Shown in pieces: positions 6,121 to 6,606 of a stretch of DNA of 64,000 bases. The stretch comes from Curtobacterium flaccumfaciens UCD-AKU. Its GTDB lineage: Bacteria > Actinomycetota > Actinomycetes > Actinomycetales > Microbacteriaceae. A program made the position numbers and the translations under genes. The stretch covers positions 181,023 through 245,022 of the forward strand of contig NZ_KB714628.1 of the NCBI RefSeq assembly GCF_000349565.1, in the 5' to 3' direction. The notes beneath the pieces were generated by a model. That model was not told the DNA's origin and searched no databases. It saw only the letters and a program-made list of their open reading frames with translations. Numbering within the stretch: position 1 is the first letter of the stretch; each line of letters begins with the position of its first letter.

Positions 6121-6606
6121 TCAGGCGCGCCGCACCGCGCGACGCAGGTCGCGTCGGAAGCGACGCGGGTCGACGCCGAGGGCGTCGAGGGCGTCGAGGG
6201 CGTCGAGGACGTCGTGCGCCGATCCGGCGAGCGGGTCGTCGACGGCGGCGAGCACGACGTGCGGCGGCCGGATGCGTTCCGATCGACCGGCGATCGTCGC
6301 GGCTCGGGCGAGCACGCGCATCGCGGCGGGCGTGCAGGCGACCCGGTCGTGCTCGCCGGGGCAGGTGGTGTGCGCCCCGACGAACGCGCGGATGCTCGCC
6401 CGGACGGCGTCGGGCGAGACCCGGTGGGCGTCGAGGACCGGCCGGAAGCGGGGCATGCCGGCACACAGGGTGACGGCCGCGAGGAGCAGGTGCTCGGCGT
6501 CGACGAACCCGAAGCCGGACTCGTGGGATTCGAGGTCGGCGAGCAGCACGATCTCGCGGCCGTGCCGGACGGAAGGGAGGGCGACGGAGAGCTGAGCGGT
6601 CTGCAT
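6121..6606 (-). CDS. Orphan ClpC N-domain-like protein (no ATPase)
   Basis: 161 aa. Two degenerate Clp_N repeats can be aligned with those of ClpC: FVDAEHLLLAAVTL corresponds to [12 protein letters not shown], and RVACTPAAMRVLARAA to [16 protein letters not shown]. No Walker motif exists and the chain ends after the repeats, so it cannot be an unfoldase. Mycobacterial ClpC2 is a known stand-alone N-domain that binds the same ligands as ClpC1. This gene directly upstream of clpC could be such a decoy, an adaptor or an anti-adaptor. The Phe80 equivalent is Cys here. A 9-bp tandem repeat adds LDALDALDAL near the C-terminus. ATG at 6606 abuts an 11-bp palindrome. Confidence 0.7.
   Translation of the reverse strand: MQTAQLSVALPSVRHGREIVLLADLESHESGFGFVDAEHLLLAAVTLCAGMPRFRPVLDAHRVSPDAVRASIRAFVGAHTTCPGEHDRVACTPAAMRVLARAATIAGRSERIRPPHVVLAAVDDPLAGSAHDVLDALDALDALGVDPRRFRRDLRRAVRRA

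Follow-up and report, generated by a model that had tools for sequence, protein, structure and literature searches.

A probable stand-alone paralogue of the ClpC N-terminal domain beside clpC in Curtobacterium, tentatively read as a free receptor

A protein of 161 amino acids encoded beside clpC in Curtobacterium flaccumfaciens UCD-AKU is best read, from its sequence, as a genus-specific paralogue of the ClpC N-terminal domain (NTD) that consists of two degenerate Clp_N repeats and nothing more. We tentatively propose, from sequence and by analogy, that it may serve as a free, ClpC-NTD-like putative receptor or sponge, and that what it captures may be a ligand or partner directed at ClpC but outside the cyclomarin class. 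The gene lies in a stretch of 64,000 nucleotides (contig NZ_KB714628.1), which as a whole is referred to as the window, and its features are collected in Table 1.

Table 1. Features of the small Clp_N gene and its surroundings, in window coordinates unless residues are stated
Feature	Position	Strand	Details
Small Clp_N protein CDS	6121..6606	(-)	161 aa; ATG 6606-6604, stop 6123-6121
Cys91 codon, at the ClpC1 Phe80 position	6334..6336	(-)	MAFFT, HMMER and hhalign alignments agree
Arg-rich C-terminal helix codons and stop	6121..6168	(-)	
Predicted helices of the 161-aa protein	residues 14-29, 37-49, 55-60, 65-76, 93-106, 114-123, 130-142, 147-159		
TATTCT, probable -10	6613..6618	(-)	6 nt ahead of ATG
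Hairpin 3' of the stop codon	6062..6099	(-)	17-bp perfect stem, no T run; z -5.25
ClgR-box-like site, clpC promoter	5948..5962	(-)	
clpC	3321..5840	(-)	839 aa; N-domain intact with F2, F80, E89, E31
nadK-type gene, divergent neighbor	6677..7609	(+)	70 bp between start codons of nadK and the small gene

Results

Sequence homology and fold prediction

Clp_N (PF02861) was the sole Pfam match of the 161-aa protein, scoring 27.5 bits where the cut-off is 20.7, and neither of the two AAA+ modules of the ClpC ATPase was found in it by Pfam. Neither repeat rose above the cut-off alone, and the label "degenerate" is therefore correct; an earlier sequence-only reading had described two such repeats and nothing else, and both this description and the profile check that it proposed hold. 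A six-frame PF02861 search of the organism's own genome missed the small ORF and matched only clpC and an 880-aa frame (contig C22). The NCBIfam match of the protein was a polymerase subunit model (15.8 bits vs a cut-off of 1897) and was taken as chance.

Comparison of the small family with 15 ClpC-type N-domains (hhalign) aligned both repeats over 132 columns at 27% identity (probability 97.8, E 8.6e-13). The orthologous small proteins were further assembled into an 18-row alignment, the window copy among them, of which 42 columns are invariant across the 18 sequences and which served as the family profile. Searched against the PDB, this profile placed ClpC N-domains at the top (2.6e-9 to 1.5e-8 in the best rows, about 40 bits), with the ClpC2 proteins of M. 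smegmatis (8b9o; 1.9e-4, 24.7 bits) and Mtb (8ad9; 0.027, 17.7 bits) scoring less well; ClpC N-domains were the best matches among the solved structures compared. It was also noted that the window copy differs from the other 17 rows by an in-frame 9-bp tandem repeat (6178-6204, DALDALDAL) and a nearby 3-residue deletion.

With ClpC-type rows added to its alignment, AlphaFold2 predicted eight helices as two four-helix Clp_N repeats (pLDDT 79.2). The model from 10 family rows alone reached a pLDDT of 45.6, yet placed eight helices in Clp_N order, and was left out of the fold search. Clp_N-like structure is predicted to begin at about residue 9 of 161, and the model gives the N-terminus ahead of it a low-confidence short strand. 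The superposition on the ClpC1 NTD suggested by the sequence-only reading gave a Z of 15.9 and an rmsd of 2.4 over 141 residues for the pLDDT 79.2 model (Mtb, 3WDC), and the same model scored 16.7 against Arabidopsis ClpC1 (5GUI), 15.3 and 13.6 against Arabidopsis ClpT2 and ClpT1, and 11.4-11.5 against ClpC2 (11.5 for the Mtb C-domain), with ClpC N-domains at 21% identity; these Z values lack the power to tell Clp_N subtypes apart. The added ClpC-type rows bias the model to the Clp_N fold, and we therefore base the homology claim on the sequence comparisons.

Substitutions in the binding pocket

The sequence-only reading had placed a Cys at the equivalent of Phe80 and had suspected an altered pocket, and both points were borne out. 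The Cys was found in 22 of 22 sequences, window included, in an invariant column of the family alignment. Two further pocket positions are replaced: F2 of ClpC1 falls on A9 of the small protein (P or S in three orthologues) and E89 on the invariant A100. The EH pair of the first repeat is kept (E38-H39), and the glutamate of the second is lost, with E106 corresponding to P115 in the window copy and to V, A or H in other orthologues. Because F2, F80 and E89 are all replaced, a ligand of the cyclomarin class in its known binding mode is unlikely; taken with the lost second EH glutamate, this makes a decoy for the known ClpC ligands unlikely as well.

These replacements bear directly on the proposal of a true ClpC2-type cyclomarin sponge. 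Such a protein would share the Clp_N fold, the small size and a possible leaderless mRNA like that suggested for clpC2 (PMC10030653). We nevertheless consider this highly improbable, given the loss of all three residues and the lack of both the N-terminal domain and a clpC2-type operator, and true ClpC2 orthology was rejected on the same features.

At the other end of the protein, the last 15 residues hold 7-8 Arg in all 22 sequences. It was also observed that the small protein has zero lysine and 18-23 arginines in 22/22 sequences; the mean lysine content over 45 roughly called window genes is 2.2%. Escape from pupylation was discarded as a weak explanation: a search of the genome for Pup (PF05639) found none, and 3/19 small predicted window genes are likewise lysine-free by the rough calls.

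Gene neighborhood and expression

The small gene directly adjoins clpC, as the sequence-only reading had stated, and lies between clpC and a divergent gene that is presumed from its motifs to be nadK-type. This arrangement was seen in 30/30 carriers inspected (18 + 12) among 31, G458 being left out and L046 being a repeat of G030. That reading had also attached weight to the presence of the gene beside clpC in relatives, and here the outcome was divided: 35 of 66 genomes of the genus gave no match, yet every carrier inspected has the gene at this position.

TATTCT precedes the ATG by 6 nt in 20 of 22 sequences and by 9 nt in L021/L022. No conserved -35 was seen ahead of it in the 22 sequences, and a consensus scan returned no sigma-70-type pair for the small gene. 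An extended N-terminus was rejected: since the spacing differs in L021/L022 and an upstream in-frame start is missing in some sequences, TATTCT was read as a promoter. With this element 6 nt from the ATG the mRNA would be leaderless, and to judge from these motifs the gene is probably transcribed from its own promoter.

Upstream conservation is strongest over approximately 14 bp at the start codon, and the exact start-codon motif occurs once in the genome, with four further sites at one mismatch. This peak coincides with the site of the ClpC2 operator (PMC10030653), and together with the rarity of the motif and the arginines of the last 15 residues it could point to a small DNA-binding autorepressor that, in ClpC2 style, would read a ligand and act on its own promoter. 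We regard this as quite improbable. An ordinary -10 element accounts for TATTCT, and the palindrome TATTCTGAATA at the window start codon, tried as an operator, was rejected as it is lost in most orthologues. The DNA-contact residues R185/R189 of ClpC2 fall on positions 104 and 108 (counted from F172), both variable in the family alignment, and the small protein, with its promoter motif next to the ATG, has no counterpart of the dimerisation domain that ClpC2 needs for tight DNA binding (PMC10030653). For the ClpC2 operator CGTCAAC-n5-GTTGACG, the best site had 5-7/14 mismatches (100 nt upstream, 22/22 sequences).

A presumed ClgR-like box was present in 36/36 nadK-clpC spacers, and none was seen upstream of the small gene. 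An upstream region of its own, carrying this box, precedes clpC; the small gene has no such box and is probably a separate transcription unit. Two further exact ClgR-box-like sites (47471-47485 and 58263-58277) bring the window total to three vs 0.26 expected under the same presumed consensus. The transcript may end at the hairpin behind the stop codon; uninterrupted stems of at least 10 bp follow the gene in 6/22 sequences only, and a scan for terminator-like sites 3' of the gene found none.

Distribution across genomes and selection

The small gene was identified in 31/66 Curtobacterium genomes (family profile, E 1e-10 or better). Among 398 Microbacteriaceae genomes drawn, with up to 9 preliminary candidates scored in each, strong matches were confined to Curtobacterium; weak homologues outside the genus may have escaped this scoring. 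Other genera gave 57 match rows at E 6e-8 or weaker; three lie in frames of 180, 190 and 252 aa, and the rest in frames of 607-1301 aa whose length points to ClpC. A Devosia match (L044) lay in a protein that looks unrelated and was dropped as chance, the plasmid collection held no match to the gene, and no viral relatives of the small family were confirmed.

The nadK-clpC gap was inspected in 18 of the 35 Curtobacterium genomes that gave no match, and it measured 143-286 nt. One of them (L077) retains about 37 nt of the 3' end of the gene and the hairpin region that follows at 78% identity, and blastn found no gene remnant inside the other 17 gaps. The genome L089, which is near the window on the nadK tree and misses the gene, matches the window on either side of the absent stretch, and the G315 copy was matched at profile positions 39-157 only. 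Mapping presence of the gene onto a 36-genome nadK tree takes 12 changes, and well-supported branches force at least 7 of them; this scatter matches that of shuffled labels (shuffled mean 12.5; 239/500 shuffles as low). Distances between copies of the small gene agree with those between the nadK genes (Mantel r 0.76; 0/2000).

The scattered presence and the small remnant together suggest an old gene that would have been repeatedly lost. The best fit is a vertically inherited gene lost many times, and recombination at the nadK-clpC locus is possible. To judge from profile scores, rather than from a resolved tree, the gene probably originated by partial duplication of clpC in a Curtobacterium ancestor.

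Purifying selection was evident in nine chosen closer pairs (dN/dS 0.045-0.27); the window copy gave 0.09-0.12 against its three nearest relatives and up to 0.49 against distant ones. The C. oceanosedimentum copy (L037) is 89% identical. Because it has orthologues, purifying selection and a conserved promoter motif, the gene is more than a chance reading frame. The same values bear on the idea of a decaying, largely or wholly functionless relic of the clpC duplication, an idea to which the scattered presence, the L077 remnant, the partial G315 copy and the 3-residue deletion and 6-residue repeat of the window copy would lend themselves. Given the dN/dS of the closer pairs, the conserved promoter spacing and the number of invariant columns, we judge a relic to be decidedly improbable.

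The small protein is less conserved than NadK in 153/153 pairs (median 71% vs 93% identity, minimum 48%), and the ClpC N-domain is identical in 34/36 genomes over the 122-145 residues compared. Plant ClpT1 and ClpT2 are stand-alone Clp_N-fold proteins that bind the Clp core, and the small protein could likewise be an accessory subunit touching the Clp machine, at the ClpP ring or the ClpC hexamer. The Z scores of the predicted model against ClpT2 and ClpT1 lie near those of ClpC N-domains, and an acidic partner could be gripped by the C-terminal helix, which is invariably rich in Arg. Such a subunit appears unlikely to us: the Z scores cannot separate Clp_N subtypes, the gene is missing from more than half of the genus genomes, and the small protein drifts while the ClpC N-domain, the one part of the machine compared, is near-invariant.

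Discussion

In the free-receptor reading, the degenerate ClpC-NTD paralogue would act in trans, capturing a ligand or partner aimed at the ClpC N-domain, such as a toxic peptide, phage protein, adaptor or substrate, and this capture would spare or tune ClpC. The adaptor ClpS is present in the genome. Fast yet constrained evolution beside a frozen ClpC N-domain would be expected if the ligand lay outside the cell's own conserved set. The scattered presence, the agreement of distances and the remnant suggest that the gene may be conditionally useful and repeatedly lost; against the receptor reading, any dispensable gene would be lost repeatedly just as readily, and 17 of the 18 inspected gaps hold no remnant by blastn. 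A bolder form, which we consider rather improbable, is a genus-level immunity or sensor gene drawn from the host ClpC receptor domain. Its pocket would be rebuilt around the invariant Cys, perhaps for covalent capture of a putative ClpC-directed compound or phage protein, and the gene would be repeatedly lost in the absence of that agent.

Antibiotics target ClpC. A clpC-linked domain that lacks the known contacts and is nonetheless selected suggests that domains of this kind can have other ligands and could be used as bait to find them. If the small protein is inert, it would be an ordinary duplicate. In the open literature, Curtobacterium with ClpC returned nothing beyond a genome report, and Clp_N decoys or sensing returned none.

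Among known systems, the ClpC N-domain itself (3WDC, 5GUI) shares with the small protein the two Clp_N repeats and eight helices. The small protein differs from it in having no AAA+ modules, F2, F80, E89 or second EH glutamate, and in its Arg-rich last helix and longer N-terminus. Mycobacterial ClpC2 (8AD9, 8ADA, 8B9O) is alike as a small stand-alone Clp_N protein with a possible leaderless mRNA. As described in PMC10030653 and PMC10864484, ClpC2 is the sponge precedent, keeps F2, F80 and E89 and binds cyclomarin through these equivalents, its N-terminal dimerisation domain consists of four helices, and ClpC3 is another stand-alone ClpC receptor domain, both sharing the drug-binding site of ClpC1. 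The small Clp_N protein has neither the dimer domain nor the cyclomarin pocket, and its family matches ClpC2 less well than ClpC in both bits and Z. Of the ClpC2-like decoy put forward in the sequence-only reading, the Clp_N fold and the stand-alone form thus stand, and a close likeness to ClpC2 is unsupported. ClpC3 is likened here by its description in PMC10864484.

The plant ClpT proteins resemble the small protein as a stand-alone Clp_N fold without an ATPase (Z 13.6-15.3), and their lineage differs. Closer in taxonomy are other stand-alone Clp_N proteins of the Microbacteriaceae (L091:3996-4469 and relatives, approximately 140-160 aa matched), which carry an invariant Trp96 of uncertain placement, lie mostly ahead of ABC-exporter-type ATPase genes and match the small family at E 1.5e-7, weaker than ClpC does. 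In this family (L091:3996-4469 and L135-L145), 10 of 11 strong-match loci have a same-strand frame with ABC-ATPase motifs within 1.5 kb, eight of which start directly behind, and the L091 neighbor is drrA (TIGR01188); these proteins may sense a ligand on behalf of a drug exporter. Yet another Clp_N protein that stands alone (L092:3727-4230, minus strand) is convergent with a rifampin ADP-ribosyltransferase gene.

Clp_N domains without an ATPase were also encountered in phages. Across 25 viral-contig loci with ClpC-type N-domains (L104-L128), the frame stops 199-276 codons past the match start in 16, and stand-alone copies may therefore be common on viral contigs. Gp251 of Mycobacterium phage Myrna (L129:3971-4678, 235 aa) is a stand-alone ClpC-type N-domain, for which no paper linking Myrna and ClpC was found in the open literature. 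The domains of Myrna and of a second Mycobacterium phage, Phabba, are 79-83% identical to the Curtobacterium ClpC NTD and, unlike the small protein, keep F2, F80 and E89.
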